Part shown: positions 25,369 through 45,821 of the stretch, one piece after another
Position numbering within the stretch: the stretch's first letter is position 1
Layout: each line of letters begins with the position of its first letter
NCBI RefSeq assembly: GCF_900696045.1
Contig: NZ_LR216287.1
Span: forward strand, 682,001 to 746,000
Source: Candidatus Nitrosocosmicus franklandus
GTDB taxonomy: Archaea > Thermoproteota > Nitrososphaeria > Nitrososphaerales > Nitrososphaeraceae
Reading direction: 5' to 3'
Length of the DNA: 64,000 bases
The notes under the pieces: generated by a model
Seen by the model: the letters and a program-made list of their open reading frames with translations, nothing else
The model's database searches: none
What the model was told of the DNA's origin: nothing
Translations under genes and position numbers: made by a program

Positions 25369-26703
25369 TCAAATGTTACCTGACTTGGTGGTAAAGCCAT
25401 GTGTTGTTTTCGTTGCCCCCCAAGACTTTATGGTGAATGCCCTCACAAAAACCACAAAAACGTATAACACAAAAGAATTGTAAATCGGTACAAATAGTGC
25501 ATACTTTAGCCCTTTCCACCCATATTCTTTTATTAATACAGTTATTTGTAAGATCCAAATGAAAGCAGTAAGCAAAAGCCATTGATTAATTGTTATTGCT
25601 GCGTAATTAAAAGGAAAGTATCCAAATATTAGATTAAATATCATCCCAAATCCAATGGTCAAGAACAACCCTAATGCTGCTAATATAACTAAAGGACTCA
25701 ACCAAAAAATGATACCTAGGATATCAGTAGGTTCGCAGGCTTGATGTTTCAAGAGATCAATAAAACCCTTAGCCCACCTGGCTCTTTGTTTTAATAAAAT
25801 TTCTACGGTGGGAGGCTTTTCGTCATAGTTAATACAATAAGGTGCAAAAACTATTCTATAGCCTTTTTTCAATAATCTTGAAGTAAGTTCATAATCATCT
25901 ACTAAATGGTTCTTAAATCCACCAACTTCTTGCAAGATCTCCTTTTTCAAAATGTAACCCGTTCCACCAAGGCCACCTCGTTTATCCAACGCAGTTCTAG
26001 TAGTCATATATGGAGTTGACCACAGGTCACCTTCTATTGACAATAGTCTAGTCACAAAACTATAATTCCTGTTGCTAGGTACATATCTTCCTTGTACAGC
26101 AGCATATTTTTCTAATAGTGGAAGCCCTTTTTCTACAAAGTCATGACTTAAAATACCATCTGCGTCAAGGACTAAAATGTAATCGCCTTTCGATTTTGAA
26201 ACTCCAAAATTGAGTGCGATTCCTTTACCCGAATCCTTTGTTCTATAATCTAAAGCCCTTACTCGTGGATCTTCGACGGAAGCTTCAGCAAAAGTATTGT
26301 CACTGCAGTTATGGCATACGACAACAATTTCTATATTCTGATATGTTTGTTTTAGAAGCTCTGTTACTGTCCTTTTTATAACGGTGTCTTCATTATGTGC
26401 TGCTATAATTATAGAGCACAATACATTCTTTTTGATAATGGCATCTTTAAAATCTTCACAAGCTTTTTCTTGAATCGATCTCACCTTTTTATCCATTATA
26501 AGATATGTCACGAGAATGAAACACGTTACTGCAATATACAAGACAATAATCACTAAAGGTGGCAAAGTTACATAATAGAGATTTACATCGGTATCAATAA
26601 GAATCTCGTTTCCTGTATACCAATAATAAATTGTACTAAAAATTACAGTAAGCCATATTGCCAATAATACAGCGTACATTATTTTCCATTTCTTGTCTTT
26701 CAA
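25369..26703 (-). CDS. Processive family 2 glycosyltransferase, membrane-bound
   Basis: A 444-residue protein with two N-terminal membrane spans (about 8-28 and 45-70), a GT-A catalytic domain and about three C-terminal spans. The catalytic motifs are SIIIAAHNEDTVIKRTV, the DxD in LVLDADGILSHDF, GGFKNHLVDDYELTSRL and QRARW (the Q-x-x-R-W of processive beta-glycan synthases such as poly-GlcNAc, hyaluronan and cellulose synthases). It probably polymerises and exports a surface polysaccharide. Its TTG start overlaps the stop of the upstream gene (TTGA), indicating translational coupling; ATG 26682 is an alternative. Confidence 0.88.
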   Translation of the reverse strand: MKDKKWKIMYAVLLAIWLTVIFSTIYYWYTGNEILIDTDVNLYYVTLPPLVIIVLYIAVTCFILVTYLIMDKKVRSIQEKACEDFKDAIIKKNVLCSIIIAAHNEDTVIKRTVTELLKQTYQNIEIVVVCHNCSDNTFAEASVEDPRVRALDYRTKDSGKGIALNFGVSKSKGDYILVLDADGILSHDFVEKGLPLLEKYAAVQGRYVPSNRNYSFVTRLLSIEGDLWSTPYMTTRTALDKRGGLGGTGYILKKEILQEVGGFKNHLVDDYELTSRLLKKGYRIVFAPYCINYDEKPPTVEILLKQRARWAKGFIDLLKHQACEPTDILGIIFWLSPLVILAALGLFLTIGFGMIFNLIFGYFPFNYAAITINQWLLLTAFIWILQITVLIKEYGWKGLKYALFVPIYNSFVLYVFVVFVRAFTIKSWGATKTTHGFTTKSGNI

Positions 26704-27218
26704 CGGATTTCCCCAAAAGGATTGATTATTTTCAATATGGGATTGTTTGCAATGGAGGAAAGCACCGTGTCAAACCAATTGACCACCTTTATTTGTTGAA
26801 CCAATCTGGCAGCATTATCATTCACATCTACAGCTCTAACCTGTATTTCTGTAACCGGAGGAATCGCTTTAATTAGCGCAATATATTCTTGGTTCTGTTC
26901 TTTTGCTAAATAGGTTTCAATATTCCTATCTCCTTGAGTAAAATTTATTCCTCGAAGTTTTAACGGGGATTCATCCTCTATTTTCAACTTTAAAACGTTA
27001 TTACCTTCATATAGTATATCGTTTAAAATAGTAATTTTTGGAGGAGTAGTGTCATTCTCTACAGTACCAGTACAGCAAGCTGGTTGCACAGGACCAGGAA
27101 GAGGCAAGGGTTGCATCACCCACTGAGCATTTGCCAAACGCTCATTATAGAAATTAATTAGAATGATTAAAACATAAAGAGTAGAAATTAAAAACAAAAG
27201 ATACAGGATACGATTCAC
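26700..27218 (-). CDS. Secreted or anchored Ig-like protein, 172 aa
   Basis: An N-terminal hydrophobic segment (ILYLLFLISTLYVLIILINF) is followed by a Pro-rich stretch with a Cys pair (PVQPACCTGTV). Then comes a beta domain (PPKITILNDILYEGNNVLKL; TEIQVRAVDVNDNAARLVQQ) whose DVNDNAA strand resembles cadherin/Ig-like surface domains. Its stop overlaps the start of the GT2 gene, so the two are made together. It may be an accessory subunit of the synthase or hold the glycan. This is inference from coupling. Confidence 0.72.
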   Translation of the reverse strand: MNRILYLLFLISTLYVLIILINFYNERLANAQWVMQPLPLPGPVQPACCTGTVENDTTPPKITILNDILYEGNNVLKLKIEDESPLKLRGINFTQGDRNIETYLAKEQNQEYIALIKAIPPVTEIQVRAVDVNDNAARLVQQIKVVNWFDTVLSSIANNPILKIINPFGEIR

Positions 27219-27450
27219 TTTACTATGAGAAAGGGAATGTCATATATTTAGGTACCTTTTTTGGAACCTATTTAACAGTTCGTGTTTTTGTTTGATGTTA
27301 TTACAATATTACAACATTTCGATAAAATTCAAAGTCTAAATCAGGATGAGGAAATGGGAGTTATTGACATAACAATAAAGTAATAAATCGCTCGATTGAA
27401 GAAAGAAGGTTAAAAAGATTCAGATCAAATCATCACGTCGGTTTGTTTGT
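27219..27450. other. Divergent intergenic region
   Basis: AT-rich spacer between the Ig-like/GT2 pair and the GH26-like gene. It should carry promoters for both directions. I see no repeat or RNA gene. Confidence 0.4.
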
Positions 27451-27579
27451 ATGTCGTCAATATCAAAAGAGACACAACTCACATTAGATTATTTTTATTG
27501 GATCTTACCCTGTCCGTCATGCCTTGATTTCTTGTTTTACTCCAAACCAAAAGCAGAGACTTTTGTCTGCAATTACTAA
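27451..27579 (+). CDS. Possible microprotein with CPSC motif, 42 aa
   Basis: ATG 27451 opens a frame of 42 codons with LDYFYWILPCPSCLDF and a later Cys (ETFVCNY). The Cys spacing suggests half a zinc ribbon. It is very short, has no second CxxC, and could be chance; I include it only as a candidate. Confidence 0.22.
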   Translation: MSSISKETQLTLDYFYWILPCPSCLDFLFYSKPKAETFVCNY

Positions 27580-27773
27580 TTTATCCTTCATAATTAGATA
27601 TGCAAACACAATAAGAAATGACCCGAAAGGAGATATCAAAAGGAAAATCCTTAATGAAAATACATTTCTTACGTGCTGAGATATATCTATGTTGCATTCT
27701 TAAATGTAAATGAGTAAATAAGGTTAAGCAATAATATATATAATTGTTCGAATCTCCACCAGCATTACAACTG

Positions 27774-28952
27774 ATGGCCTTTAGACCCTTTGCAACAATA
27801 TTATTAATTTTAGTTGTCTTGTCATCAATTTTTACCTCAGTATTTTATTTTCATCAATCAATTCCACGAGCTAATATGGTAGCATACGGTACTACTACCA
27901 CCACTATTAGCGAAGCTAATGAGAATTCTTCTGAATACATGATAAAAATCGCGCCTCCTGAAATTGGAGTATACCATGGGGCCAACCCTGGTTTTGGGGG
28001 TTCTGAAGATGAAGTAACAGCAGATAGAATAATAGATTATCAAGAGATAAGCGGAAAGAAATTAGCTTGGGCTTATTTTTCTAATAATTGGATAGAGGAC
28101 ATTGAATTTCCACAAGAGTCTGTGGAAACTATAGATAGTTTGGACGTAGTCCCATTTATTAGAATGATGCCCAGGACTACATTTGATCAGCAAGAAGAGG
28201 ATCCGGTCTTTACCCTTCAAGGAATAATTGATGGAGATTTTGATGAAAGCCTTATTGATTGGGCACATGCTGCTAAAAGTACCAATATACCGCTGATGGT
28301 TGAATTCGGCACAGAGGTTAATGGTGACTGGTTTCCATGGAGTGGTCTGCTCAATGGCGGTGGAGAGACAGATGAATATGGCGATCCAAATATTGCTGAC
28401 GGTCCAGAAAGATTCCGTGATGCATATAGACACATTATAGATTTATTCAGAAATGAAGAAGTAAATAATATAACATGGGTATTCCACGTTTTTCCCTTTC
28501 TTGAAGATAGTACTATAAACCAAGATGAAGAGTCATGGAATAATGTAGAAAACTATTATCCTGGAGATGATTATATAGATTGGATAGGTACAAGCGTGTA
28601 TGGATCAATTGAACCAGAAAAGGAATGGAATTCGTTCAGAGAGATCATGGATAGGGCATACAAAGAATTAGAATCTATATCCGATAGTAAACCATTTGCA
28701 ATATTGGAGCTAGGAATAATTGAAGACCCAGAAATGGGAAACAAAAGCGAATGGATACAAGAGGCCCTACATTTGATCGAGAATGGAACTTATCCCAGAG
28801 TCAAGGCAATAAGCTATTGGAATGAAAAATGGGAAAATGATGGCGATATCATAGATTTAACTATTGATTCAACCTCAGACTCATTAAGTACATACAGAGA
28901 ATTAATATCGTCACCATTCTTTATATCATCTGCGCGTTCCGAGTACAATTAA
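27774..28952 (+). CDS. Secreted GH26-like glycoside hydrolase
   Basis: An upstream in-frame TTG (27744) exists, but ATG 27774 gives a clean signal peptide (MAFRPFATILLILVVLSSIF). The catalytic (beta/alpha)8-like domain has HGANPGFGGSE, LAWAYFSNNW, and PLMVEFGTEVNGDWFPWSG (acid/base Glu). WVFHVFPF follows, then DYIDWIGTSVYG and PFAILELGI (nucleophile Glu). These strand motifs fit clan GH-A, closest to GH26 (mannanase and related beta-glycanases). It probably trims an extracellular beta-glycan. It lies in a run of polysaccharide genes, divergent from the GT2 synthase. Confidence 0.8.
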   Translation: MAFRPFATILLILVVLSSIFTSVFYFHQSIPRANMVAYGTTTTTISEANENSSEYMIKIAPPEIGVYHGANPGFGGSEDEVTADRIIDYQEISGKKLAWAYFSNNWIEDIEFPQESVETIDSLDVVPFIRMMPRTTFDQQEEDPVFTLQGIIDGDFDESLIDWAHAAKSTNIPLMVEFGTEVNGDWFPWSGLLNGGGETDEYGDPNIADGPERFRDAYRHIIDLFRNEEVNNITWVFHVFPFLEDSTINQDEESWNNVENYYPGDDYIDWIGTSVYGSIEPEKEWNSFREIMDRAYKELESISDSKPFAILELGIIEDPEMGNKSEWIQEALHLIENGTYPRVKAISYWNEKWENDGDIIDLTIDSTSDSLSTYRELISSPFFISSARSEYN

Positions 28953-29331
28953 TGATTAAACATTTCCCTATACTTTACATCACAATTCTAGTTGGATAAC
29001 ACTCGAGATGTTATTAATATCATGGTAAAGATAGAATAAGTAGAAGTCCATGATGGCTTCATCAAAAGTCGAAAAAATGCTTTTTATTGATTTTTTGGTA
29101 TACAGATATAAAAATAGTTTATGAGGTTAGATTACCAATATTGGATAATTTGTATCCCCTCCTAATTTGCTAATTTATAAAATATCAACTTAACATTCAA
29201 AAGTGCGGATTTAAATTAAGATCCTGTAACACTAGGTTAATCTAAAATTTTGGATTACAAAATTTAACTAAAATTAGATTTGTCCTAGATGTAGGAGTGG
29301 CCAGCTGTACTTTTTGCAACACTTATGTTAA
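28953..29331. other. Intergenic gap between convergent genes
   Basis: AT-rich spacer between the GH26-like and wecB genes. No coding frame, RNA gene or strong hairpin was seen. Confidence 0.45.
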
Positions 29332-30366
29332 TCAAGTGAGCTCTGTTTTCAGAATTTCAACTATTTTTTGGGCAACATTTTCACCGTAAGGATTCTTGTT
29401 TATTTTTGCGTTGATCATTGCTTTTATTACTTCGTGTAAGTTATCTTCTCTGTCGGGCGGGAACAAAATATTTGCTTTAAGTAAAATGGTTTCCCATCTT
29501 GCTGATGTGTGTCTCAACGTAATGCAAGGCTTCTTAATGGTAATAGATTCCTCTTGAATACCTCCAGAGTCTGTTAGGATCAGTTTTGAGTTTGACATCA
29601 AAGCAAGGAAATCCATGTATCCAAGAGGATTCATAATTGTCACATTTGAAGGAACCTGAATATTAAAATTCTCCAAGTTCTTTCTAGTTCTTGGATGAAC
29701 TGGAAACATAACAGGATAATCAGTAGACGAAATATGATTCATTAATAATTTTAGATTTTGTTGGTTGTCCACGTTTTCTGGTCTATGTAGAGTCAGTAAC
29801 AGATATTCCTTTGGCATAGAATCCGAGATTTTTCTTGAGTTAGCAATTTTTGAAAGATCCTTGCAAACATCCACTACTAAATTCCCAGTAGTAAATATTT
29901 TCCCCCTCGTATTTTCATATGATAATACAGTTGTACAGAAGTTAGAAGGAGAAAATAAATAATCAGACATCTCATCTATTTGAATCCTAAGTGGTTCTTC
30001 AGGTACATGTAAGTCAAAATCCCTGACTCCTGCCTCAACGTGAATAATTTTACTATTGATATCCCTGGCTGCCAAGGCTGCAGCCATGCTAGAGTTAGTG
30101 TCTCCATAGACTACTACATAATCTGGATTTAAATCGCGCAACAGAGAGAATAACTTATCTCTTATGATTGGAATATCTGAGGTATTGGACTGAAGATCAT
30201 AATCAGGTTTTACGTTTAATTCATCTATAAATATGTCACTCATATTTGGGGAAAAATGTTGACCCGTGTAAACAAATTTATGGTCAAAATGGGTATTTAA
30301 CAATGGGACCAAATATGCTAGTTTGATTATTTCAGGTCTAGTCCCTGCAATAGTAACTAACTTCAT
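29332..30366 (-). CDS. wecB: UDP-N-acetylglucosamine 2-epimerase (non-hydrolysing)
   Basis: The enzyme converts UDP-GlcNAc to UDP-ManNAc, a precursor of surface glycans and of N-glycans in archaea. The 344-residue length is typical of archaeal forms. Motifs are IAGTRPEIIKLAYLVPLL at the start, VVVYGDTNSSMAAALAA, HVEAGVRDFDLHVPEEPLRI, LLTLHRPENVDN, TDSGGIQEESITI and LRHTSARWETI. All match the GT-B-fold epimerase, including the Asp, Glu and His residues of the active cleft. It is flanked by long AT-rich gaps and appears monocistronic. Confidence 0.94.
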   Translation of the reverse strand: MKLVTIAGTRPEIIKLAYLVPLLNTHFDHKFVYTGQHFSPNMSDIFIDELNVKPDYDLQSNTSDIPIIRDKLFSLLRDLNPDYVVVYGDTNSSMAAALAARDINSKIIHVEAGVRDFDLHVPEEPLRIQIDEMSDYLFSPSNFCTTVLSYENTRGKIFTTGNLVVDVCKDLSKIANSRKISDSMPKEYLLLTLHRPENVDNQQNLKLLMNHISSTDYPVMFPVHPRTRKNLENFNIQVPSNVTIMNPLGYMDFLALMSNSKLILTDSGGIQEESITIKKPCITLRHTSARWETILLKANILFPPDREDNLHEVIKAMINAKINKNPYGENVAQKIVEILKTELT

Positions 30367-31032
30367 TTCATTGGTAACTAATAAGGTCTATAAGAATTTT
30401 TCTTTATTAGAATACAAAAATTGGCTTTAATGCAACAACCATTCAAGAAAATAGAATACCAATACATAAATCCTTCCGCCGTCTAATGTTTAGGATTCGA
30501 CGTCATAACATACAACGTATCTAGTCATTGCTCGAGTCCCAATAATAAAGCCATCAAGGCTTTTAGAAAGAAAATTCCTAAACTAGTTGTATAACCAAAT
30601 CAACTCATAAACGAGATTTCACACGTCTCTCAAGTTTGGCATATACACCAAATTAATAAGGTGACGAGTTCTCACCTGACAACAAACATCTAGTTATCAG
30701 GCTACAATTAACTGATTTGATAGTATCTAAATGGTCAGGCAAAATTTGTTATGTAGTATCATATGATTGAAAATTGTATATAAACAATATCGGCAAAATA
30801 GTAAGACAAAGATGTAAGACTACTGAATTCAATTCTTGATGTCCTACGCTTCTTGAATTCCATAAGTAATGATCTCAAACTGATATCAAGTAAACAGAAA
30901 AAGGATCACGATCGTGTATTAAGAAATACTTTAGTTTTGCAAAGAACAAAACTATTCATCTATATCTAAAGGAGATCTCAATTTCTTGAAATAGTTCATC
31001 TTTTTTGATTACTTTTAAGGACAAAAAATGCT
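30367..31032. other. Long intergenic gap upstream of wecB
   Basis: About 700 bases of AT-rich DNA between divergent genes. A few short stem-loops are visible (for example AAAGCC-loop-GGCTTT near 30547-30563 and AGGTGA-loop-TCACCT near 30659-30677), none strong. No coding frame or RNA gene was recognised. Confidence 0.4.
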
Positions 31033-31040
31033 TAAATACA
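31033..31040 (+). promoter_or_regulatory. TATA-like element of the propeller gene
   Basis: TAAATACA lies about 24-31 bases before TTG 31064, which supports that TTG as the start of a leaderless transcript. Confidence 0.35.
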
Positions 31041-31063
31041 AATAATTTGCTAAATTCTGTAAA

Positions 31064-31807
31064 TTGAAAATATTGATTATTAGCGGTCTCTTAGTATTTG
31101 TTTGTTTATTTTTTATAAAACCAATTGAAAGTCTAGCAATACCATCAGACCAAAATATAGTGGTAACCAAGAGTTGGAATCTCCCCATGCCTAACAATCA
31201 AAATGACCGCACTGCTATTACCAGTTCATTTAGTGGTAACGAAATATATTTCATAGAAAGTAATTCAAATACGATTGGAAGACTTGTTCCAGAAACTAAT
31301 ACAATTACAGAATGGACCATACCTACTCCCAATGGTTATCCTACTTCAGTAATGTATCATCCGTCCGGTAATGTATATTTCATAGAAAGTAATTCAAATA
31401 CGATTGGAAGACTTGTTCCAGAAACTAATACAATTACAGAATGGACCATACAGTCAAATACCTCCAGTTTAGACTCTATTGCACTTGGTTTCACTGGGAG
31501 CGATGAAATTTATTTTGCTGACAGCAATTCAAATACGATCGGAAGACTTGCCCCAACGACCAACCTTGTTACCCAGTGGGATGTACCTACTCCAAACAGT
31601 CATCCGACTTCAATCAAGTTTGATCGTACTACCGGTAATGTATATTTCATAGAAAGTAATTCAAATACGATTGGAAGACTTGCCCCATTTTCTAGCGAAT
31701 TTACTGAATGGAAATTACAGGAAAAACCTGTAGCTCTTGAAGTTGACTCGGCCGGAAATGTACATTATATCAACGAGAATGGTACTAAAATTGTCAGAAT
31801 GGATTAA
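31064..31807 (+). CDS. Secreted Vgb-like beta-propeller protein
   Basis: Starting at TTG 31064 it has a signal peptide (ILIISGLLVFVCLFFIKPI), then about five blades built on the unit YFIESNSNTIGRLVPETNT, ITEWTIPTPNGYPTS. This is the virginiamycin B lyase/streptogramin-lyase type of propeller. In archaea these folds usually bind ligands rather than cleave streptogramin, so no enzyme activity is claimed. Two blades are identical over 77 bases of DNA. It is followed after 6 bases by another secreted protein and is probably cotranscribed with it. Confidence 0.8.
   Translation: MKILIISGLLVFVCLFFIKPIESLAIPSDQNIVVTKSWNLPMPNNQNDRTAITSSFSGNEIYFIESNSNTIGRLVPETNTITEWTIPTPNGYPTSVMYHPSGNVYFIESNSNTIGRLVPETNTITEWTIQSNTSSLDSIALGFTGSDEIYFADSNSNTIGRLAPTTNLVTQWDVPTPNSHPTSIKFDRTTGNVYFIESNSNTIGRLAPFSSEFTEWKLQEKPVALEVDSAGNVHYINENGTKIVRMD
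31245..31450 (+). repeat. Exact 77-bp repeat encoding propeller blades
   Basis: Positions 31245-31321 and 31374-31450 are identical, offset by 129 bases (43 codons). A third copy matches for 42 bases from 31641. This marks recent blade duplication or conversion within the gene. Confidence 0.88.
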
Positions 31808-31813
31808 GACAAA

Positions 31814-32230
31814 ATGACTAACGCCAGAAATAAAATATATTCGATGAGACTGGTATTTTTAGTATTTTTTGTCTTTGTTACTCTGACCTTACCAAAACCA
31901 TTTGTTGATACTAGTCTCGCACAGACTGTATCTTTGTCTAAAACTTTTCAGGCAATAGAAGCTACCTATACAACTAATTCCACATTAGGAGCAAATCAAT
32001 TCAGCGAAAACGAATCAGTTGTAAAGGATTACCCAGTTATGAATAATTCATTTGCGCCCAATCCGATTACAAATAACCCCACATATAGTGTTACCAATGC
32101 TACTACATCAGTTAAAATAGGTACTGTAGAGGGCGATGACAGTAATAAAGCAGCCCTAAGAAATCAGAGTATAACTTTGCCGAATATAGGAGTATTAACT
32201 GGACAGAATTCATTTCAGGAAATAAGATAA
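31814..32230 (+). CDS. Secreted hypothetical protein, 138 aa
   Basis: A basic start (NARNKIYSMR) and signal peptide (LVFLVFFVFVTLTLPKPFV) are followed by a Ser/Thr/Asn-rich mature part with several sequons (TTNSTLG, FSENESV, VMNNSFAP, LRNQSI). I recognise no domain. It lies 6 bases after the propeller gene, so the two proteins are probably made together and may interact at the surface. Confidence 0.68.
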   Translation: MTNARNKIYSMRLVFLVFFVFVTLTLPKPFVDTSLAQTVSLSKTFQAIEATYTTNSTLGANQFSENESVVKDYPVMNNSFAPNPITNNPTYSVTNATTSVKIGTVEGDDSNKAALRNQSITLPNIGVLTGQNSFQEIR

Positions 32231-32476: not shown

Positions 32477-33421
32477 ATGACTATTGACGTCAGTAAAGAG
32501 TTAAATGATTTAGGATATGAGTTTGAATCAAAAGGTAGTTCCAAAGTATACGAAGCCAAATTTTCTTCGATTACAGATGCAAATCCAACGGACATTAGTT
32601 TTTGTTATTATGACGGAGATAAAGCTATAAATTATATATCCAGATCAAACGCAGGGATTATTTTATGCAAGAATTCAATAAGAGACAAAATCAATCCCAA
32701 GGATGGGCAATGTCTTTATTTTTTGGAAAACCCTCGTCTTGCCTTTGTTCAGTTATTTCATAAATACAATGATACGAAAGATGTACGGCAAATTTCTCAA
32801 TGCGCAATATTGCATGAATCAGCAAAGGTAGGTAAAGATTGTACCATTGGAGCTTATTCTGTAGTTGACAAAGACTGCATTGTCGGTGATAATTGTATTA
32901 TAGGCAATAGAGTAAGTTTAAGGAATTGTGTTATTGGAAACAACTGTATTATACAATCCGGAACTGTTATCGGAGAAGATGGATTTGCCTATGAAAGATA
33001 CGAGAATAATGAATTGTTACAATTTCCTCACATTGGTAAAGTCATAATAGGCGATAATGTAGAAATTTGTGCGAATTGCTCTATTGCAAGGGGATCCTTG
33101 TCAAATACAATTATCGATGATGGAACCAAATTAGATGCTTTAGTGCATATAGCACACAATGTGAAAATAGGTAAGAACTGCGAACTCACAGCTGGCACAG
33201 TAATTGGAGGCAGTACAGTGGTAGGTAATTCAACTTGGACCGGCCTAAATTCAACGCTTAAAGACAATATAAGAGTAGGTAATAATGTAATAGTTGGTGC
33301 TGGTGCTATGGTGATAAAGGATGTTGAGGACAAAGATATCGTTGCTGGAGTTCCTGCAAAGTCCATAAAGAATAAAACAAGCACCAATTTGACTTTTCTA
33401 ATGGCGGGTCAAAAAGATTAA
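32477..33421 (+). CDS. LpxD-like N-acyltransferase (left-handed beta-helix)
   Basis: A 314-residue protein. The N-terminal domain (about 1-110) resembles the LpxD uridine-binding part (TDANPTDISFCYYDGDKAIN; YFLENPRLAFVQLFHKY). From about 112 to 300 come hexapeptide repeats (AKVGKDCTIGAYSVV; IGDNVEICANCSIARGS). The LpxD catalytic His lies in LVHIAHNVKIGKNCEL, and the end reads DIVAGVPAKSIKNK. LpxD acylates UDP-GlcN derivatives in bacterial lipid A. Archaea lack lipid A, so here it probably acylates a nucleotide-linked amino sugar for a surface glycan. The substrate is inferred. Confidence 0.82.
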   Translation: MTIDVSKELNDLGYEFESKGSSKVYEAKFSSITDANPTDISFCYYDGDKAINYISRSNAGIILCKNSIRDKINPKDGQCLYFLENPRLAFVQLFHKYNDTKDVRQISQCAILHESAKVGKDCTIGAYSVVDKDCIVGDNCIIGNRVSLRNCVIGNNCIIQSGTVIGEDGFAYERYENNELLQFPHIGKVIIGDNVEICANCSIARGSLSNTIIDDGTKLDALVHIAHNVKIGKNCELTAGTVIGGSTVVGNSTWTGLNSTLKDNIRVGNNVIVGAGAMVIKDVEDKDIVAGVPAKSIKNKTSTNLTFLMAGQKD

Positions 33422-33652: not shown

Positions 33653-35917
33653 TTGCCCAAATCAAATAATACTCAATATATCTACTTGACACTGATCATA
33701 TCATTCTCTTTTATGTTATCGCCATTATTTTCAGATTCTTATGCTAGTAACGCCATTAGCCAAGTTAATGAATCATCAAACACTAAAACAACTGTATTTG
33801 GATGCGAACCTACACCTAATCCCGGAGTTCTTCATTGCGATCCATTTAGAAGCGAATTTGAAAGTAACACTACTACCTACACTAGTAATAAGATAAGCGA
33901 TATAACAAGAGAACCCATCTATGTAGATGGAAAAGATGGAAAAGCGATACATTTTATTGATTTATACAGAGAATATGTAGAAATCCCTCAAAGCGAATTA
34001 TTTAACTCCTCTGAAATCACTGTTTCCTTTTGGATGAAGGAGACTGATAGGGATAAGCCGCATGTAGACCAAAACGTTCAAGAAAGTCCTAACGCCCATG
34101 TTATTTCTCATACAAACATAGATGGCGATAATGGATGGTATTTTGATTATAATTATGATGATCAGTCTGTTCACTTTGTTGTAACTGATACGTCTGGCGG
34201 TTTGACGACTTCAGATAGCATACCTGTTTCAAATGCGTCGTTTACTCAAATTGCGGCTACCTTTGACGGCTCGCAAATCGGGATTTACAGAGATGGAGAG
34301 TTGCTACAAACTTTGAGTTATAGCGGAAATTACAGTGCTGCGCACCCCCTTCCTATACACATTGGATCAGCATCGCATTGTAATTCATGCAATGAATTGT
34401 CTGGAAACGTAGATGATGTTCAATTATTCAATCGTGCACTTTCTGAGGACGAAGTTAAGCAAATATACTTAGAAATGGAAAATGGTGAAACGCAGGTTAG
34501 TAATTCAAATTCGCCTACAGGTCTTGTAGGACATTGGTCATTTGATAATACTTTGGATGATCTCTCTATCCACAAGAACAATGCGAAAATGTTTACTTTA
34601 CTTTCAAGTTTGGCAACTACTCCTGATGATAGGATCTTGATTTCTGAAAAGAATACGGGAAAGATAAGAATAATTCAGGGGGGTATACTATTAGAGAGAC
34701 CTTTTGCAGTAATTAATGATTCATATATTGGATGGGAACAAGGATTATTAGGTATCGTTGTAGATCCTGATTTCAAAGAAAATCATTATGTCTATTTGTA
34801 TTATACATCTACTTCGGGAGAAGGAAGCAATCCCGTCAACAAGGTAATCAGATTTACCGAGAAAGATAACATTGCAGTTAATAGTACAGTAATAATAGAT
34901 GGATTGCCGGCCGGCATAGGTTATCATTCTGGTGGTGCAATGGCCTTTGGTCCAGACGGCAAGCTATACATCACAGTTGGAGATGCAACAGAGGAAGAAA
35001 AAACCCAGGATATTTCTTCCCTCTTGGGCAAAGTACTTCGAATAAATAAGGATGGCTCTATACCGGCGGACAATCCCTTTCCAGACTCCCCTATTTTCAC
35101 CATAGGGCATAGGAATATGTATGGTATTGCTTTTGATCATAAAGACGGAATAGGTATAGTTACTGAGAATGGTGATGAACTCTATGATGAAATTAACATA
35201 CTAAAGAAGGGGGGTAATTATGGATATCCTACATATCAACTACCAAATACACCGCCAGAACTCTCAGAGTCCAATTGGGATATTAAACCTTTAAGGGCAT
35301 ATTTGTATCCACAAGGCCCCACTCAAGCCATTTACTATGACCACGATAAATTTCCATCCTTGAAAGATAATTTTATTTTTGGAACTTATACGGGAGACAT
35401 ATACGGTATTCACATAAACGAGACATCTGAAACCATAGATTCCGAACGACGGATCTTATTGGATCACTATCCGTTCGAAGCTATTAATGGCATAGCACAG
35501 ACTAGTGATGGAAATATCTTTTTTGGGGCACATCACTTGTACATGTTGAACTCGATTTCAAAAGAAGATGACATCGTACAAGAATTGTTTCCAATAACTA
35601 TAACGAGACCCATTAACATAGATATTGACAAGGTATATGCATCCATAAATGCCTCGGTAGAATTACAGATGAGCTCTACACCTAGCGATTCTGAATCAAA
35701 TAATACCCAGTATGTCAAAATAAAGATGCCTAAGGCGATTATTAATAAAATAGAAAATGTAGTCTATGGGTCATTGTCAGAAAGAGAGAATAGTCAAGGG
35801 ATCCCATTCTATGTAGCCGATATTGACGCCAAGTATATCGAAATAACCATACCTCTGGAGTTCAATGTTTCAAATACCAGATTGACTATTAATAGTGAAG
35901 ATATCGGGGTAACATAA
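33653..35917 (+). CDS. Secreted LamG plus PQQ-type sugar dehydrogenase-like protein
   Basis: A 754-residue protein starting at TTG 33653 with a signal peptide (YLTLIISFSFMLSPLF). Residues about 85-275 form a LamG/concanavalin-like domain (ITVSFWMKE; NGWYFDYNY; VDDVQLFNRALSEDEVKQI). A fragment of a second LamG start (GLVGHWSFDNTLDDLS) runs straight into a six-bladed GSDH propeller (about 315-620). The propeller has WEQGLLGIVVDPDF, YHSGGAMAFGPDGKLYITVGD, GHRNMYGIAFD and GGNYGYPTY, and a beta tail closes the protein. GSDH enzymes oxidise sugars with PQQ; PQQ supply is not evident here. A role in binding and oxidising matrix sugars is inferred. Confidence 0.83.
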   Translation: MPKSNNTQYIYLTLIISFSFMLSPLFSDSYASNAISQVNESSNTKTTVFGCEPTPNPGVLHCDPFRSEFESNTTTYTSNKISDITREPIYVDGKDGKAIHFIDLYREYVEIPQSELFNSSEITVSFWMKETDRDKPHVDQNVQESPNAHVISHTNIDGDNGWYFDYNYDDQSVHFVVTDTSGGLTTSDSIPVSNASFTQIAATFDGSQIGIYRDGELLQTLSYSGNYSAAHPLPIHIGSASHCNSCNELSGNVDDVQLFNRALSEDEVKQIYLEMENGETQVSNSNSPTGLVGHWSFDNTLDDLSIHKNNAKMFTLLSSLATTPDDRILISEKNTGKIRIIQGGILLERPFAVINDSYIGWEQGLLGIVVDPDFKENHYVYLYYTSTSGEGSNPVNKVIRFTEKDNIAVNSTVIIDGLPAGIGYHSGGAMAFGPDGKLYITVGDATEEEKTQDISSLLGKVLRINKDGSIPADNPFPDSPIFTIGHRNMYGIAFDHKDGIGIVTENGDELYDEINILKKGGNYGYPTYQLPNTPPELSESNWDIKPLRAYLYPQGPTQAIYYDHDKFPSLKDNFIFGTYTGDIYGIHINETSETIDSERRILLDHYPFEAINGIAQTSDGNIFFGAHHLYMLNSISKEDDIVQELFPITITRPINIDIDKVYASINASVELQMSSTPSDSESNNTQYVKIKMPKAIINKIENVVYGSLSERENSQGIPFYVADIDAKYIEITIPLEFNVSNTRLTINSEDIGVT

Positions 35918-38438: not shown

Positions 38439-38524
38439 ACTATTAATGAAAATTTGTTCAATAATAAGTATTGGGTTTTGTATTTAACAAAGGAATAATA
38501 AAATAAATCATTGAAAAAAGAGGG

Positions 38525-38992: not shown

Positions 38993-39004
38993 AATAAAAC
39001 CAAA

Positions 39005-39024
39005 GTAACTATATGTAACTATAA
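39005..39024. promoter_or_regulatory. Tandem 10-base direct repeat before the membrane protein gene
   Basis: GTAACTATAT followed directly by GTAACTATAA, 13-32 bases before the ATG at 38992. About 15 bases further out, CAATTGTC (39039-39046) and GACAATTG (39068-39075) form a spaced inverted repeat. These may be regulator sites; in AT-rich DNA chance is also possible. Confidence 0.3.
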
Positions 39025-39046
39025 TATATTAATTATGGCAATTGTC

Positions 39047-39672
39047 TAATAGATGGTCAGCTTAAAGGACAATTGATAATACTTTTAGAGGTATTTTTGA
39101 GATTTACAAGAAAGAGAATCAGCTATTGATGGATGTAAGACCTCAGGCGACCGTCTCAAAAATATATGCGATGGTTTAACACAAATATTAACCCGTACTT
39201 ATTCTTGCATATCCAGATTATGTGGTTTTCCATACTAAGTTATCAGAGCACTTGCAGCCTAATTGGCTCATTACTTCTATACATACATAAAATGTGACAA
39301 CGCATTGACCAAAAATCGCAAATTCTATTATCAAAATTTGCGGTACTTTTAGATTATCAGAATGGTTTTCTATCCATATAAACAATATAAGCATCCTACA
39401 GTTGGGCCTTAACTTCTATATTCTTTCTAACCATCGATAAAAGTTAATTAAATGTTGTTATTTTCACGTCAACTCCCATCAAATGAGAATATAACGCATA
39501 AAAGTTGGTACAAAAAATTATCAAATGCCATAACATACCCCGGCTGTGCTAACCATTGAATATTATAAATAAATTTTTCTTTATAAGTTCAAATAATTTT
39601 GAATAGATAAAGTTATACTTGTAAATTCATATTATACCACAAGATTAATATATTTGCTTATTAATTCAAGTA
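39047..39672. other. Long intergenic gap
   Basis: AT-rich DNA between divergent genes. Apart from the sites near 39005-39075 I see no coding frame, RNA gene or repeat. The last roughly 35 bases (TTAATATATTTGC region) should hold the promoter of the next gene. Confidence 0.4.
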
Positions 39673-41076
39673 TTGATCATGCAATGGAGTTTAACTGAAA
39701 TCAATTTAAATGCTGTTGAATTAGATAAAATAAGGGTACTTATTGTAGATGAACAGCATGTCGAATTATCGCATACACAAGATTCCGTTGAGGGCATGGA
39801 ATTTACATTATGCAATTCATTATCAAATGCATTTGATGTTATAGATAATCAACAGGTTGACGTCGTATTATGCAATATGAATGCACCGCCAAAGTTCCTA
39901 AGAGAATTTTTCCAAAAATATAATCAGAGAGTACCAATAGTAGCATTTTCATCCATTGACGATCCGAAATTAGCTTATTTGGCGGCCATGCTAAAAGCTA
40001 GAGACATCGTATTCTCAAAACAACTAAATTATAAAGACATCTCTCAAACGTTGAAAAAAGTTAGATCGGAATGGATCGAGGAACAGCAAGGAAAAATGAT
40101 AGATGGCTTTCTGCAAGAACCACAGAATAGAGTAATTTTGAGAGAATTATTAGTTTCAGATTTACCCATCAGTCAAAGGATTGTATCAAAGTGTGTTAAT
40201 GAAATTCCAATCGATGATTCAATAAGAAAAGCATATGGAATAAAATCTAATGAAATATTAACTAAAAATCCAGAAATCTTAGAAAAAATGGTCAAAATGA
40301 AAATTGTAGTCAAGGAGAATATCGGTCAAACTATTGCGTGTGCTAACTGTGATTCTGTAAATATTTATGCCAATTATCATTGCCCTAATTGTAATAATAG
40401 TAGATTCAAAAGAAAGGAACTATTCTTCCACAAACTATGCAATCTAATGATCACATTAAAAAAGTATTCCAATTCTGGCGAGATCTTTTGCCCTAATTGT
40501 ATGATCTATTTCGAAAATACCAACTCTAACTCTTATACCGTTCTGGGATTCGAATGTGTACATTGCAATAAGAAATTCGCTACTCCTTCTATACTTTATA
40601 ATTGCAATGACTGTAATTACGAAAAATTTACTCTGAATTCAGCCAAATGGATTGATCTCTACAGTTTTAAGATACGTGATGAGCACATCAACAAACTGAA
40701 GAATAATTTCTTCTCATTAATGCAACTAGAGGATTTCTTGACGCAATCAGGATTTGCCGTGAAACATTATGATCGGTACACCGAAAATCACGACTCTTTT
40801 GGCCCCTTTGATTTAATTGCATATTCTCCGATGAGGATGCTCATATTCATTACATTAGGCAATGACCTCACTCGCAACATAGAGAAGATCCTTGAAATTG
40901 AAAAGTTATCTACAGTGTCGAAAAAGAACATAAAAACATTTGCAATATCTAAAATACGTCCCGTAAATTCGATTCAGAATTTATTAAAGAAATTTAACAT
41001 AGATTCGATATGCGAAGATGAAAACAAGGATATAAAGAGCATTCTGATCAAAAGTTTAACTCCGCGTATTTTTTAA
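39673..41076 (+). CDS. Degenerate receiver plus zinc-ribbon protein (TackOD1-like)
   Basis: A 467-residue protein. TTG 39673 or, more likely, ATG 39679 starts it. Residues about 18-130 form a receiver-like domain: IRVLIVDEQH (acidic pair), VDVVLCNMNAP, VAFSS and IVFSKQ (Lys). The phospho-acceptor Asp is replaced by Asn, so phosphorylation is unlikely. The middle has several CxxC pairs (CANC, CPNC, CPNC, CVHC, CNDC) making two or three zinc ribbons, like the TackOD1 output domain described for these archaea. The last roughly 110 residues (FFSLMQLEDFLTQSGF; FDLIAYSPMRMLIFITLG) form an alpha/beta nuclease-like or sensing domain. Confidence 0.75.
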   Translation: MIMQWSLTEINLNAVELDKIRVLIVDEQHVELSHTQDSVEGMEFTLCNSLSNAFDVIDNQQVDVVLCNMNAPPKFLREFFQKYNQRVPIVAFSSIDDPKLAYLAAMLKARDIVFSKQLNYKDISQTLKKVRSEWIEEQQGKMIDGFLQEPQNRVILRELLVSDLPISQRIVSKCVNEIPIDDSIRKAYGIKSNEILTKNPEILEKMVKMKIVVKENIGQTIACANCDSVNIYANYHCPNCNNSRFKRKELFFHKLCNLMITLKKYSNSGEIFCPNCMIYFENTNSNSYTVLGFECVHCNKKFATPSILYNCNDCNYEKFTLNSAKWIDLYSFKIRDEHINKLKNNFFSLMQLEDFLTQSGFAVKHYDRYTENHDSFGPFDLIAYSPMRMLIFITLGNDLTRNIEKILEIEKLSTVSKKNIKTFAISKIRPVNSIQNLLKKFNIDSICEDENKDIKSILIKSLTPRIF

Positions 41077-41729
41077 AAGTACCTTTAGGAGTTTCTAACA
41101 TTTCTGAATAACAAAATCAATTCATTTACAAGTAATCATTTTGGTTTGTTTGATGGGTTTTTACTTTTCACCAAATATGCCAAAATCATTAATATTTATT
41201 AAAAATAGACAACTAAAAAATAACACTGATTGTATTTCTATGGCCTTGTAATTTTCAATAAACAGTCAAGTTAATTAAGAATTAAAATACTGGTTTTCAT
41301 ACGATTATACCAAGGTATTCTACTTGCAAATAGTAATAATACGGTACGGCAGCGAGATTGTTTTAATAATTGGCATGTTAATGTGAAAAAGCGTATCTTG
41401 TTGACGGCACACATGATATTAATGGTTATTTCTCAAATTTAAGAGGCACTACTAGGACACATAACAAAATTGAGCAAATTAAATTATTATCGGTGTTATT
41501 TTCATATGTCCCTATAAGATAAAGAGAGATAAAGAATTAAATTTGATATATAAGATCTAATGAGGGGGCATTTTAGTACTAATTTTCCTTGAATAAGAAC
41601 AGACTATTGTAGAATAATTTAATAAACTTATTCTAAACTTTTTTTTGGAGGATAACACTGTTCCCAGTGATAAGTTGAATAGCACTCTTCTTGCATTAAA
41701 TTAAAATAAGGACTTTAAACAATATTCAT
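41077..41729. other. Long intergenic gap
   Basis: AT-rich DNA between same-strand genes. I see no coding frame, RNA gene or repeat unit. The T-run near 41641 and the AATATTC just before 41730 suggest a separate promoter for the deacetylase gene. Confidence 0.4.
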
Positions 41730-42419
41730 GTGAATATTCTAGCGATTGGAGCACATCCGGACGATATTGAACTTGGATGTGGAGGAACGTTACTAAAAGC
41801 AGCTAGAAGTGGTGTCAATGTCTTCATGTATATAGTAACACGTGGTTCAAGTGCTGGATCAGTAGTTAAACGCTCCAATGAGATCATAAGTTCGGCAAAG
41901 TACATTGGAGCCAAAGCAATATGGATTGATGACTATGAAGATTCGGCAGTCTATTTAACCAAGGAATTGATTAATTCTATCGAGTTTTTTATCCGTAAAA
42001 CTCAGGCAGATGTCATCTATACACATCCAATAAAAGACAACCATCACGACCATAGAGCAATTTGTGAAGCAACTGTTGAGGCAGGACGATTTACCCCCAA
42101 TATTTTTGCATATGAGAATCCATCAACAAAGAATTTTGCACCAGTCTTGTATAGTGACATCTCTGATGTTATACTTGAAAAGATTAGGTTAATCGAGCTT
42201 TATGGATCTCAAAAATCAAAGGTATTTCTCAGTTCGAATTCAGTCAAGGCGGTAGCTGAACATAGAGCAATACAAACACGTCTTGATCCTAAATTGACTC
42301 ACGTGGAAGCATTCGAAGTCTTAAAAATGATGATGAACACGGATCATACTTTGTTACCTACAAGACGGCTTGCAGAAGATCTCAAACCTTCTCGAGATAT
42401 TATAGAATATATATCATAA
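41730..42419 (+). CDS. PIG-L/LmbE family N-deacetylase
   Basis: A 229-residue protein starting at GTG 41730. The zinc site AIGAHPDDIELGCGGTLLK lies at the N-terminus, with the catalytic Asp in HPDD, and the later zinc His is in HPIKDNHHDHRAICEA. The typical segment ALRDP is replaced by IQTRLDPKLTHVEAFEV. These enzymes remove acetyl groups from GlcNAc-linked substrates (GlcNAc-PI, mycothiol precursors, bacillithiol, glycans). With wecB and a GT2 synthase nearby, action on a surface GlcNAc compound is plausible but inferred. Confidence 0.88.
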   Translation: MNILAIGAHPDDIELGCGGTLLKAARSGVNVFMYIVTRGSSAGSVVKRSNEIISSAKYIGAKAIWIDDYEDSAVYLTKELINSIEFFIRKTQADVIYTHPIKDNHHDHRAICEATVEAGRFTPNIFAYENPSTKNFAPVLYSDISDVILEKIRLIELYGSQKSKVFLSSNSVKAVAEHRAIQTRLDPKLTHVEAFEVLKMMMNTDHTLLPTRRLAEDLKPSRDIIEYIS

Positions 42420-42794
42420 ATCAATCAATACTTGTTCCTTCTACGATTTTATGATACACTATTCCGTTCCAATGATCTGCTTGCAAGCAGTTTTTCCAAT
42501 TTATTTATCAATAAAGGGTTATAATTTGTAAAGCCTATTTTAGCAAATTGGGAATCCATCATCTGTTCTTTTGGAAGCGATAGAGATCAGTTCTTATAAG
42601 TTGTTTGGGGAATGTAATTTTCATTGCAAGTCGATTTTCTCATCTATCTAGATAGAAGGAAAACATAAATTTTCTTCTACTTGCGGTAATGACGAAAAAC
42701 GAAAAGAACTTAAGTTCAAGTTAAAAATCTTTCTTTGATAGCTACTGCCATTATAGCATAGAGTATATGAACAAAGTCATCATTTTAGAAAAGT
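42420..42794. other. Intergenic gap
   Basis: AT-rich spacer between same-strand genes. No coding frame, RNA gene or notable repeat was recognised. Confidence 0.4.
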
Positions 42795-43943
42795 GTGGAT
42801 CATTATATTAATGAAAGTGTGTATGAAACTTGTATGCATTCATTTCAAAGGAAAAAAACCTTCAATGTGTTTAATTCTCTGATTGTTGCATTTGTGCTTT
42901 TCTCAGTCGTTCAAATGTTAAGTATACTGAACCCAAATACTGCATTTTCGTCACATCTTCCAGAATCCTCGACTTCCCATAATGAAAAAAAAAGAATTGC
43001 ACTAATAGAGAATACTTTTACATATGCCGCATATCAAAATGGATCATTCTATAATTTCTATGACTTGCATAGTCCCGAAATGTACACCCGTGAGGGTCAA
43101 GGACTTAATACAACCATAACAGAAAATTTGTATTTATTAAAAGATCGGCCTATTCCCCAGGGACCGTTTCCATTTTATCTCCATCCCGAGTATAAAGATA
43201 TTCCCTATATTACATACGCCTACCTCATCCTAGACCTAGTCCATAAAAACAACCAATCCATTGTTAATCTTACCGATGCTGATGTAGACCAAGGCAAGAT
43301 TTTCTTTGCAGATGGTGAAAATGCATACGACGTATTAATTCTCCTTCATAATGAATATGTATCTCAAAAAGAATATGACAATCTCAAAAGATTTGTAGCC
43401 AATGGCGGGACTATACTATTTACGGAAGGAAATGTTTTGTATGCAGAGGTTGACTACAACAGTACAACTAATACCATATCGCTAGTAAAGGGACATGATT
43501 GGGAATTCGACGGAAAATCCGCAAGAAATAGTATTAATGAAAGATGGCTTAAAGAAAATAAAGAATGGATGGGCAGTAATTTCCTAGATTATTCTTCTTC
43601 CAAGCCATTGCATTTTGGATTCAATCCATTTAACTATACTCATTATGAGGAACAATACCTAACAAACCCAAATGCTACAATACTTATAGATTATGAAGCA
43701 TATGGTTTCCCTGAAGAGTACGAAAATGCTACAATAGCTACTTATTATATGGATTACGGATTGGGTAGAGTAATTCATTTATCCCTTTGGGGTCACACAA
43801 TAGACGAGAATCCAATATTTGTTGAGTATTTTGAGAAGATTTTGCTGCCATTGGCACTAGGCAAAAATGTAACGGAAGAAAACAAACACTTTACAGATGA
43901 AAGAAAATTGCACTTAGGAAATTCTACTGACACCGCGAGCTAA
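42795..43943 (+). CDS. Secreted GATase-like-fold protein (paralogue A)
   Basis: A 382-residue protein starting at GTG 42795. A membrane or signal segment (LIVAFVLFSVVQMLSILNP) is followed by an extracellular domain: KRIALIENTFTYAAYQNGSF, LLKDRPIPQGPFPF, NLTDADVDQGKIFFADGENA, LILLHNEYVSQKEYDNLKRF and VANGGTILFTEGNVLYAEV. The strand-HNEYV-helix-NGGTI order resembles class I glutamine amidotransferase/ThuA-like folds, but the catalytic Cys nucleophile is not evident. Many N-glycosylation sequons are present. It is a close paralogue of 44712-45821, with a 768-base gap between them. The function is unknown. Confidence 0.75.
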   Translation: MDHYINESVYETCMHSFQRKKTFNVFNSLIVAFVLFSVVQMLSILNPNTAFSSHLPESSTSHNEKKRIALIENTFTYAAYQNGSFYNFYDLHSPEMYTREGQGLNTTITENLYLLKDRPIPQGPFPFYLHPEYKDIPYITYAYLILDLVHKNNQSIVNLTDADVDQGKIFFADGENAYDVLILLHNEYVSQKEYDNLKRFVANGGTILFTEGNVLYAEVDYNSTTNTISLVKGHDWEFDGKSARNSINERWLKENKEWMGSNFLDYSSSKPLHFGFNPFNYTHYEEQYLTNPNATILIDYEAYGFPEEYENATIATYYMDYGLGRVIHLSLWGHTIDENPIFVEYFEKILLPLALGKNVTEENKHFTDERKLHLGNSTDTAS

Positions 43944-44711
43944 TGAACTTTTAGGTTATTCATATACATGAAGAATATCTTGTAACCAAAACCAATACTA
44001 CCAAGAACGAAAAATTTCCAACCTTTCTTTTTGTTCTTTTTAGATCTTTGGAAAAAATTATTTTTGGCTAATCGGCCTAATCTAAATAATTTACAAAATC
44101 GAACATTAATCTTCCTGTAGTTCGTACTATCCACAATACAATTATTTTTGGCTCGCCGCAACTTACATCCAAATAATTGAAAAATAAATATTCTAATAAC
44201 ATGCAGGACAAATGATGTCATTTCGCTAATGAAGGAATAATACTGACAATATTCCAATCAAAAGAATAGGAGATGCTCTTTGTTGGTTAAATGATCCTAT
44301 ATATTCAGCACTTCGTAACCAGATTCGTATCTAAGTGTCAGAAATAAAACAGCTGATCTAAAATATTGTATTCATTATCACCATTAGGCTTGAATGATTA
44401 TAATTGAAATTCATCATAATGACCAGCGTATTTGTTATAAATACATACTGTCTTTATAATATGAGCAAACATAAAAAGGAAATGTTGTTTTCGATAAACG
44501 GATGGTCTCAGTATTATCTTGAACTTTGTTGCATGCACAATCCAGCATATTGATCGTGTCAAATTTTTATACTATATTACTAAAAGGATAATTTACCCGT
44601 CACAATAAAACAACATGAGTATTTCAACATTATTTTTGCGAATTCAACGCGATCAAAAATTCTGTTATACGAGAGGGCCAGTAAAATTTAATATGAACGC
44701 CTAAACTCATT
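43944..44711. other. Gap between tandem paralogues
   Basis: AT-rich DNA. A 105-codon minus-strand frame (43940-44257) is Lys/Phe-rich and lacks protein character. No RNA gene or mobile element was seen that would explain the duplication. Confidence 0.4.
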
Positions 44712-45821
44712 TTGATGATGCTTAGGGCTTTAAATCAAACCACATTTATAAAATCTTTAAATGGAATCATAAATAAATTGAGTTTTTCTAATAAAGTACT
44801 ATTATCTTCATTTATTTTTATATCTATCACTGTCTTTGCTATCTTCCAATTATCAACAATTCCTATTATATCAGCTAGCTTGGAAAACTACGGTGTTGAC
44901 ACCAACGTATCAAGCAGCTCAGATAACAAAAAAGTTGCGCTAGTGTTACCATCTTTTACTTGGGCAGCATATCAAACCGGGTCCTTCTACGATTTTTATG
45001 CATTATATAGCTACATCCAATTTGCCAACAGAGAAGTTAACATCACAATCACAAATAACACACATCTACTAAAGGATAGACCTATTCCTGAAGGACCCTT
45101 TGTCTATTATACCGATCTCGAAGAAGAACCATACACCCCTTACATCAATTTTATAAATCTTGCAAAAGACCTTTACAGAGAACATGGTATTAATCCCACT
45201 AATCTCACAGATGCAGATGTGGATCAAGGCAAGATCTTTAACGCAGACGGTACTAACGCGTACGACATCTTATTTCTCTTTCATAACGAGTATGTAACCC
45301 AAGCTGAATACGATAATTTGAAAAAATTCGTCACCAATGGTGGGACCATAGTATTTGGGGATGGAAATGTATTATATGCAGAAGTTGCCTATAACCAAGA
45401 CAACAATACAATATCACTTGTGAGCGGGCATAATTGGAATTTTGATCAAAAGAATACTGCGTGGAAAGGTCCAGCCGAAAGATGGTTGGATGAAACAAGA
45501 GAGTGGGTCGGAAGCAATTTCCTAGATATCCCTGCAAACTACCCATTGAGATTTAATAACAATCCATTTAACTATACCCATTCAGAGGAAAATTATGTTG
45601 CCAACCCGAATGTAAAGATATTAATAGACTATGAGCTTGACAACGTCCCTAGGTACTCTGGCCAGTATCTAGGTGCTAAAGTGGCAACTTATGAAATGGA
45701 CTACGGGAAAGGGAAAGTCATTCATTTGGGCTTATGGGGTCATATGTTGGCACTAAATGAAGATTTTGCAGAATATCTAAATAATGTAATTATACCACTG
45801 TCACTTAATAAGACGTCATGA
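44712..45821 (+). CDS. Secreted GATase-like-fold protein (paralogue B)
   Basis: A 369-residue protein; TTG 44712, ATG 44715 and ATG 44718 are possible starts. The hydrophobic segment (VLLSSFIFISITVFAIFQL) precedes a domain matching paralogue A block for block: KVALVLPSFTWAAYQTGSFY, LLKDRPIPEGPF, NLTDADVDQGKIFNADGTNA, LFLFHNEYVTQAEYDNLKKF, NGGTIVFGDGNVLYAEV and GKGKVIHLGLWGH. Differences concentrate in the N-terminal anchor and in the segment after NYVANPN. Both copies keep the WVGSNFLD/WMGSNFLD and NPFNYTH motifs, suggesting a shared functional surface. Many sequons imply glycosylation. Confidence 0.77.
   Translation: MMMLRALNQTTFIKSLNGIINKLSFSNKVLLSSFIFISITVFAIFQLSTIPIISASLENYGVDTNVSSSSDNKKVALVLPSFTWAAYQTGSFYDFYALYSYIQFANREVNITITNNTHLLKDRPIPEGPFVYYTDLEEEPYTPYINFINLAKDLYREHGINPTNLTDADVDQGKIFNADGTNAYDILFLFHNEYVTQAEYDNLKKFVTNGGTIVFGDGNVLYAEVAYNQDNNTISLVSGHNWNFDQKNTAWKGPAERWLDETREWVGSNFLDIPANYPLRFNNNPFNYTHSEENYVANPNVKILIDYELDNVPRYSGQYLGAKVATYEMDYGKGKVIHLGLWGHMLALNEDFAEYLNNVIIPLSLNKTS

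Follow-up and report, generated by a model that had tools for sequence, protein, structure and literature searches.

Genes of the region

The region described here lies in a stretch of 64,000 nt of DNA from the soil ammonia oxidiser Candidatus Nitrosocosmicus franklandus (positions 682001-746000 of a single-contig, 2,836,447-bp genome), the whole of which is called the window. It contains the gene of a GT2 synthase and, lying on both strands with long gaps between them, genes for an epimerase, two candidate amino-sugar modifying enzymes and several secreted proteins, which a preliminary description had taken together as a candidate exopolysaccharide system. Each gene listed there is present and correctly typed, based on open reading frame (ORF) positions and on Pfam and NCBIfam matches. 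The features are as follows, with window coordinates, strand, and the place of each in the comparison below (aa, amino acids; TM, transmembrane):

25369..26703, minus strand: GT2, membrane-embedded processive-type synthase, 444 aa; core (PF13641, E 8.8e-30; PF13632; QRARW motif)
26700..27218, minus strand: SEC, single-TM secreted partner, 172 aa; core in Nitrososphaeraceae
27744..28952, plus strand: GH26 glycoside hydrolase, secreted; local accessory outside the conserved cassette (PF02156, E 1.4e-9)
29332..30366, minus strand: WecB, non-hydrolysing UDP-GlcNAc 2-epimerase; core (TIGR00236, 272.6 bits)
31064..31807, plus strand: Vgb-like beta-propeller, secreted; lineage accessory (PF24684)
32477..33421, plus strand: LpxD-like hexapeptide N-acyltransferase; modifier (PRK00892, 226.4 bits)
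33653..35917, plus strand: LamG + GSDH (PQQ sugar dehydrogenase-like) protein, secreted; core, extracellular (PF07995, PF13385)
41730..42419, plus strand: PIG-L/LmbE-type de-N-acetylase-like protein; modifier (PF02585, E 6.7e-23)
42795..43943, plus strand: DMFA2_C paralogue 1, secreted, 382 aa; extracellular (PF20254, E 3.8e-15)
44712..45821, plus strand: DMFA2_C paralogue 2, secreted, 369 aa; extracellular (PF20254, E 1e-15)

The coupling of the synthase to a secreted protein is borne out by the ORFs of GT2 and SEC, which share 4 bp. The “two large secreted paralogues” are indeed paralogous (52% identity) and secreted, although “large” is generous for proteins of this length. One TM segment toward the N-terminal side was predicted from hydropathy in each of SEC, GH26, the Vgb-like propeller, GSDH and both DMFA2_C proteins, and in none of PIG-L, the LpxD-like protein and WecB.

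A cassette conserved across genera

Scattered as they are in the window, the genes form a genuine set that relatives conserve and keep together. Each protein was searched across 70 Nitrososphaeraceae genomes, and GT2 was found in 19 of them. SEC is present in 16 genomes, all of which are GT2-positive (Fisher p 3.9e-13); close WecB homologues in 20, with 18 GT2-positive (p 1.5e-13); GSDH in 19, with 16 GT2-positive (p 3.2e-10); and close PIG-L homologues in 22, with 16 GT2-positive (p 2.1e-8). Here “close” denotes an identity of at least 48% for WecB and at least 45% for PIG-L, and both cuts were chosen after a gap had been seen in the match tables (from 48% down to about 40% for WecB, and from 48% down to about 34% for PIG-L). 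The overlaps of these four families with GT2 were reached in 0 of 20000 within-genus shuffles, a procedure that removes genus-level ancestry but not finer kinship.

Physical linkage follows the same pattern. Among the 19 GT2-positive genomes, GT2 lies within 25 kb of a homologue of SEC in 15, WecB in 14, GSDH in 13, and LpxD and PIG-L in 9 each, where random placing expects at most 0.75 genomes per family; these counts are lower bounds, because many contigs are short. The coordinates and presence lists used for the co-occurrence and proximity tests and for the PIG-L/LpxD pairing count given below were transcribed by hand, and fragments of genome G009 were included in the co-occurrence counts.

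In three loci (L019, L021 and L022) the genes run in the order SEC-GT2-WecB, with PIG-L and LpxD beside SEC, and the whole set occupies about 5 kb; GSDH comes after WecB in L020, L021 and L022. In Nitrosocosmicus the cassette is opened by additional genes, and in the window it spans 20 kb. The preliminary description had named the gene neighbourhood as a check, with a lack of conservation counting against the system; what we found is a neighbourhood conserved across genera and compact in other genera. The linked system that it proposed thus stands for the synthase, its partner, WecB, the LpxD-like protein, PIG-L and GSDH, and loses GH26. The latter is rare (6 of 70 genomes, 3 of them GT2-positive) and has no association with the synthase (Fisher p = 0.20; overlap reached in 4144 of 20000 shuffles).

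In genome G006, GT2 and WecB each have, near the intact gene, a second copy broken by several stops (G006:C13:33871-34626 and G006:C13:49056-49838), and the cassette was therefore duplicated and then partly lost there. Decayed second copies were also considered as a cause of the scatter in the window, where a tblastn search with the cassette families found no remnants.

The synthase, its partner and the epimerase

Residues D180, D182, D270, E272, Q306, R307, R309 and W310 of GT2, which make up its DxD, DDxEL and QRxRW motifs, show no variation in a set of 15 and in a set of 18 homologues. The AF2 model of the protein (pLDDT 88.9, pTM 0.86) has Chlorella virus hyaluronan synthase as its best Foldseek match (E 2.9e-15), and the fold shared with hyaluronan and cellulose synthases covers residues 32-444, that is, both the glycosyltransferase domain and the TM channel. 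In a second structural comparison the model superposed on BcsA (Z 27.2, root-mean-square deviation (rmsd) 3.4, 363 aligned), on hyaluronan synthase (Z 27.1, rmsd 3.3, 358 aligned), and on PcManGT, a Pyrobaculum membrane mannosyltransferase (Z 27.6, rmsd 3.8, 328 aligned). Since PcManGT ties with the synthases, processivity of GT2 is likely rather than proven. The protein resembles the hyaluronan, cellulose and PgaC-type synthases in its three motifs, in having TM helices on both sides and in its full-length fold, but differs from them in its low identity to solved synthases (about 15%), in falling below all NCBIfam equivalog cut-offs, and in its pairing with WecB and with a secreted protein outside the classified families. 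PgaC_IcaA (TIGR03937) is the top NCBIfam model and aligns over the full length, but GT2 scores far below its cut-off (90.9 versus 422.3 bits), as it does for the NodC equivalog TIGR04242 (49.1 versus 550 bits).

SEC has one TM segment and matched no family in Pfam or NCBIfam. WecB, which adjoins GT2 in many relatives, scores above the cut-off of its equivalog TIGR00236 (272.6 versus 210.15 bits) and matches PDB entry 4neq (E 3e-71). A uronic polymer made via a nearby UDP-ManNAc dehydrogenase was also considered; the sole match in the genome to the C-terminal domain of UDP-sugar dehydrogenases lies at 2,455 kb, away from the cassette, and such a polymer is therefore not suggested by the neighbourhood.

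Candidate modifying enzymes

PIG-L matches PF02585 well above threshold (82 versus 28.2 bits), and the residues of its AHPDD and HHDH motifs (H9, D12, H105, D107 and H108), which we take to be zinc ligands, are invariant in 17 aligned sequences. The motifs align with those of the bacillithiol deacetylase BshB (6p2t) and of archaeal diacetylchitobiose deacetylase, although the protein stays below the BshB1 equivalog TIGR04001 (86.7 versus 182.5 bits). The LpxD-like protein scores above the cut-off of PRK00892, the subfamily model of LpxD (226.4 versus 207 bits), but below that of the lipid A equivalog TIGR01853 (213.9 versus 242.5 bits); its IAHN histidine, presumably catalytic, is aligned with that of Escherichia coli LpxD and is invariant in 11 sequences. 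The NodB/PgaB-type deacetylase family PF01522 had no match in the whole N. franklandus genome (control positive in 11/14); it is present in 52 of the 70 family genomes, and G007 and G009 are also without it.

In relatives, 8 of 27 PIG-L rows (G009 fragments left out) have an LpxD homologue no more than 5 kb away, against about 0.15 expected, and G029 and G041:C3 carry both genes as tandem ORFs about 6 and 15 bp apart, on contig stretches in which the synthase was undetected. This proximity and the tandem pairs suggest that PIG-L and the LpxD-like protein act as a deacetylate-then-reacylate pair, which would exchange one N-acyl group for another. Both proteins are without a signal or TM segment, which would place the step inside the cell, before export, unlike that of PgaB and IcaB; the substrate would be a nucleotide sugar, a lipid-linked sugar or the nascent chain. 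The arrangement is reminiscent of LpxC/LpxD in lipid A synthesis and of NodB/NodA, in that a candidate de-N-acetylase adjoins an N-acyltransferase that keeps the IAHN histidine, but the deacetylase here is of the PIG-L type rather than LpxC or NodB, and the pair is linked to a GT2 synthase. In the LpxD tree, the Nitrosocosmicus cassette copies (G000, G005, G006 and G007) form a fully supported clade with the copy of G017, to which none of the remaining 15 Nitrosocosmicus copies in the tree belongs.

A TackOD1-type (thaumarchaeal output domain) protein adjoins the cassette PIG-L (window 39673-42419), and proteins of this type also adjoin a second PIG-L of the N. franklandus genome, a paralogue with 78% identity (L042:9890-12612), and the PIG-L of G007 (L011:12357-14639); it may regulate the PIG-L step. 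On either side of the paralogue lies a secreted-looking ORF of 96 aa (L042:5077-5367 and L042:14160-14450); the two ORFs agree in all of their first 45 residues and may stem from recent duplication or from a mobile unit.

Extracellular proteins

The closest PDB entry to GSDH is 3a9g, presumably the PQQ sugar dehydrogenase of Pyrobaculum. Homologues of the DMFA2_C proteins occur near GT2 in other genomes, and the model of DMFA2_C paralogue 2 (pLDDT 72) is closest to the C-terminal part of dimethylformamidase and to N-acetyl-(R)-beta-phenylalanine acylase, both amide hydrolases (Z about 18 to 6lve and 8huy). Y87 and E193 are invariant in 9 sequences, and the iron site of dimethylformamidase-type enzymes consists, as we assume, of Tyr-Tyr-Glu ligands; a DMFA2_C profile search of the PDB for a residue-level alignment of these ligands gave no match, and a literature search found no paper naming iron ligands for DMFA2_C. 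The DMFA2_C proteins may be enzymes acting on the polymer or binders of it. Next to the synthase, two loci (L058:11376-15788, Nitrosopumilus; L059:6230-8677, a metagenome-assembled Nitrososphaeraceae genome) encode a secreted protein of unusual architecture, with DMFA2_C joined to a right-handed beta-helix (PF13229/PF05048).

Six genomes, from 2 genera, have the Vgb-like propeller near the cassette. GH26 matches PF02156 (38.2 versus 20.2 bits) and is closest to Lic26A, a lichenase of Clostridium thermocellum, with which the glutamates of its ENGDW and AEF motifs, the two that we take to be catalytic, are aligned. The enzyme thus looks catalytically intact, and looks like a lichenase-like local addition rather than a hydrolase of poly-GlcNAc.

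Spread beyond the family

When 84,980 species genomes were scanned, 79 loci were retained. The best 18 of these (41-82% identity) all belong to ammonia-oxidising archaea, and the others have identities of at most 31%. By sequence, the relatives carry the titles Nitrosocosmicus, Nitrososphaera and other Nitrososphaeraceae, and three of the best 18 (L058, L061 and L063) belong to Nitrosopumilaceae; L064, which has a Nitrosopumilales title but probably corresponds to G020:C110, was counted with the Nitrososphaeraceae. WecB adjoins GT2 in all three Nitrosopumilaceae loci, and in L058 the GT2-WecB pair is flanked by GSDH and a DMFA2_C protein. From the gene content of the Nitrosopumilaceae loci and the spread through the class, GT2 and WecB are the oldest core, to which GSDH and DMFA2_C are often attached, and PIG-L, LpxD and SEC belong to the Nitrososphaeraceae form.

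Secreted PF06439 proteins (3-keto-disaccharide hydrolase-like) follow GT2-WecB in Nitrosopumilaceae (L061:12505-13404 and L058:493-1341), and a protein of this family is encoded some 7 kb from the GT2 of G007 (L011:17294-18208).

Proposed pathway

From the genes, motifs and folds, and from the co-occurrence and neighbourhood observed among relatives, we infer, with a probability of roughly 0.55, a synthase-dependent surface polymer of the ManNAc/GlcNAc type whose N-acyl groups would be exchanged in the cytoplasm by PIG-L and the LpxD-like enzyme; the nature of the polymer and its linkage, the exchange and a role in the cell coat are all predictions. WecB would convert UDP-GlcNAc to UDP-ManNAc. 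GT2, together with SEC, would then polymerise one or more UDP-N-acetylhexosamines (UDP-HexNAc) on the cytoplasmic side and thread the chain through its own TM channel. In Nitrososphaeraceae, the cytoplasmic pair would replace the N-acetyl group by another acyl group, before or during polymerisation. Outside the cell, the LamG/GSDH, DMFA2_C and propeller proteins would bind or trim the polymer. A more specific version has a mannosamine-type polymer, with N-acyl exchange following LpxC/LpxD-like logic in the absence of lipid A and with the DMFA2_C proteins, rather than a PgaB, removing N-acyl groups outside the cell. We regard it as unlikely; if true, a genus reported to be without an S-layer would have a coat polymer of a chemistry unseen in bacteria.

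The main-text part of one report (PMC11559005) describes Nitrosocosmicus as lacking S-layer genes, strain MY3 and N. franklandus as having thick walls and hair-like filaments, and an amino-sugar glycocalyx as suspected for the genus. An amino-sugar coat is what the cassette would give, but the same main-text part names no such cassette; a second source (PMC7554672) describes order-level gains of exopolysaccharide and acetamidosugar genes in general terms. Literature searches, subscription papers and supplements aside, turned up no account of it.

The cassette is a candidate maker of the suspected Nitrosocosmicus amino-sugar coat, and it supplies a short, testable list of genes for the coat of these archaea, which are reported to be without an S-layer. 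If the proposal is true, archaea would have a synthase-dependent route to an amino-sugar polymer that relies on PIG-L and LpxD-like enzymes to deacetylate and re-acylate. An archaeal LpxD-like N-acyltransferase tied to a deacetylase also raises the question of the acyl donor, and the patchy spread makes carriers and their non-carrier relatives a natural comparison.

Several observations weigh against the proposal. GT2 is patchily distributed (family, 19 of 70 genomes; genus, 5 of 15; class, 21 of 400 sampled), and in the stretch around GT2 at the Nitrosopumilaceae loci (n = 3) no SEC, PIG-L or LpxD was seen. GT2 and SEC were not found in G008, a Nitrosocosmicus genome of 3,430,706 bp that we take to be strain MY3. 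On that identification, and given the hair-like coat described for MY3 in the part of the report cited above, the cassette is not the sole source of the filaments. Monophyly, across genera, of every LpxD copy that belongs to a cassette or is paired with PIG-L was rejected (approximately unbiased test, p 3.7e-37), a result that is weak because the “other” rows on short contigs (G022, G001 and G067) may themselves be cassette copies. Finally, the fold of GT2 matches a membrane mannosyltransferase as well as it matches the synthases.

Alternative explanations

The PcManGT match also fits a different product, namely a glycolipid or a lipid-linked (N-glycan) precursor. Here GT2 would be non-processive, and PIG-L and LpxD would swap the acyl group of a lipid-linked amino sugar, in the manner of GPI or lipid A chemistry. 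The known substrates of PIG-L proteins and LpxD are amino sugars attached to a lipid or a nucleotide, which suits such a product. Against it stand the invariant QRxRW and DDxEL motifs and the match of GT2 to the TM channel of hyaluronan synthase and BcsA, as well as the secreted LamG, GSDH and DMFA proteins that travel with GT2, for which an extracellular polymer is better suited. We consider a glycolipid rather unlikely.

The genes could also form no system at all, and be unrelated surface genes collected in a flexible island. Their scattered layout in the window would agree with this, as would the lineage-specific neighbours (GH26, RDD and a 155-aa protein), but co-occurrence and proximity across genera, the outcome of the neighbourhood test included, make it quite improbable.

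A lipo-oligosaccharide resembling Nod factors would follow the logic of NodC, NodB and NodA with different families: GT2 would make a short HexNAc chain, one end of which PIG-L would deacetylate and the LpxD-like enzyme N-acylate in the cytoplasm. A synthase, a cytoplasmic deacetylase and an N-acyltransferase are indeed located together, and the PDB relatives of the PIG-L profile include diacetylchitobiose deacetylase, a PIG-L enzyme that acts on GlcNAc2. However, GT2 falls far below the NodC model, the genome is without a NodB-type PF01522 protein, PIG-L and LpxD are not seen at the Nitrosopumilaceae loci, and WecB and the secreted proteins would be left unexplained, which renders this explanation highly improbable.

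Least probable of all is true poly-GlcNAc (PNAG, or its deacetylated form dPNAG) made with archaeal proteins standing in for PgaB and PgaA, since PgaC_IcaA, although the top model, misses its cut-off widely, PF01522 is missing from the genome, GH26 is lichenase-like, and WecB implies a ManNAc route, which a polymer without ManNAc does not fit. The cassette resembles pgaABCD/icaADBC in combining a synthase, a deacetylase-type protein and secreted proteins, with PgaC_IcaA as the nearest NCBIfam model, but its candidate deacetylase is a cytoplasmic PIG-L, WecB and the LpxD-like protein are added, and no PgaA or PgaD match was found among the scanned cassette proteins. Of the deacetylated, acylated GlcNAc polymer first suggested, what survives is the presence of deacetylase-type and acyltransferase genes in a conserved cassette, and what lacks support is the poly-GlcNAc identity. 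A simple exclusion of PNAG is complicated by the PF01522 matches in 52 of the 70 family genomes and by G066, where the gene immediately upstream of a divergent GT2 encodes a PF01522 polysaccharide deacetylase (L035:5183-5509 = G066:C267:5183-5509); in that lineage, a NodB-type enzyme may carry out the deacetylation.

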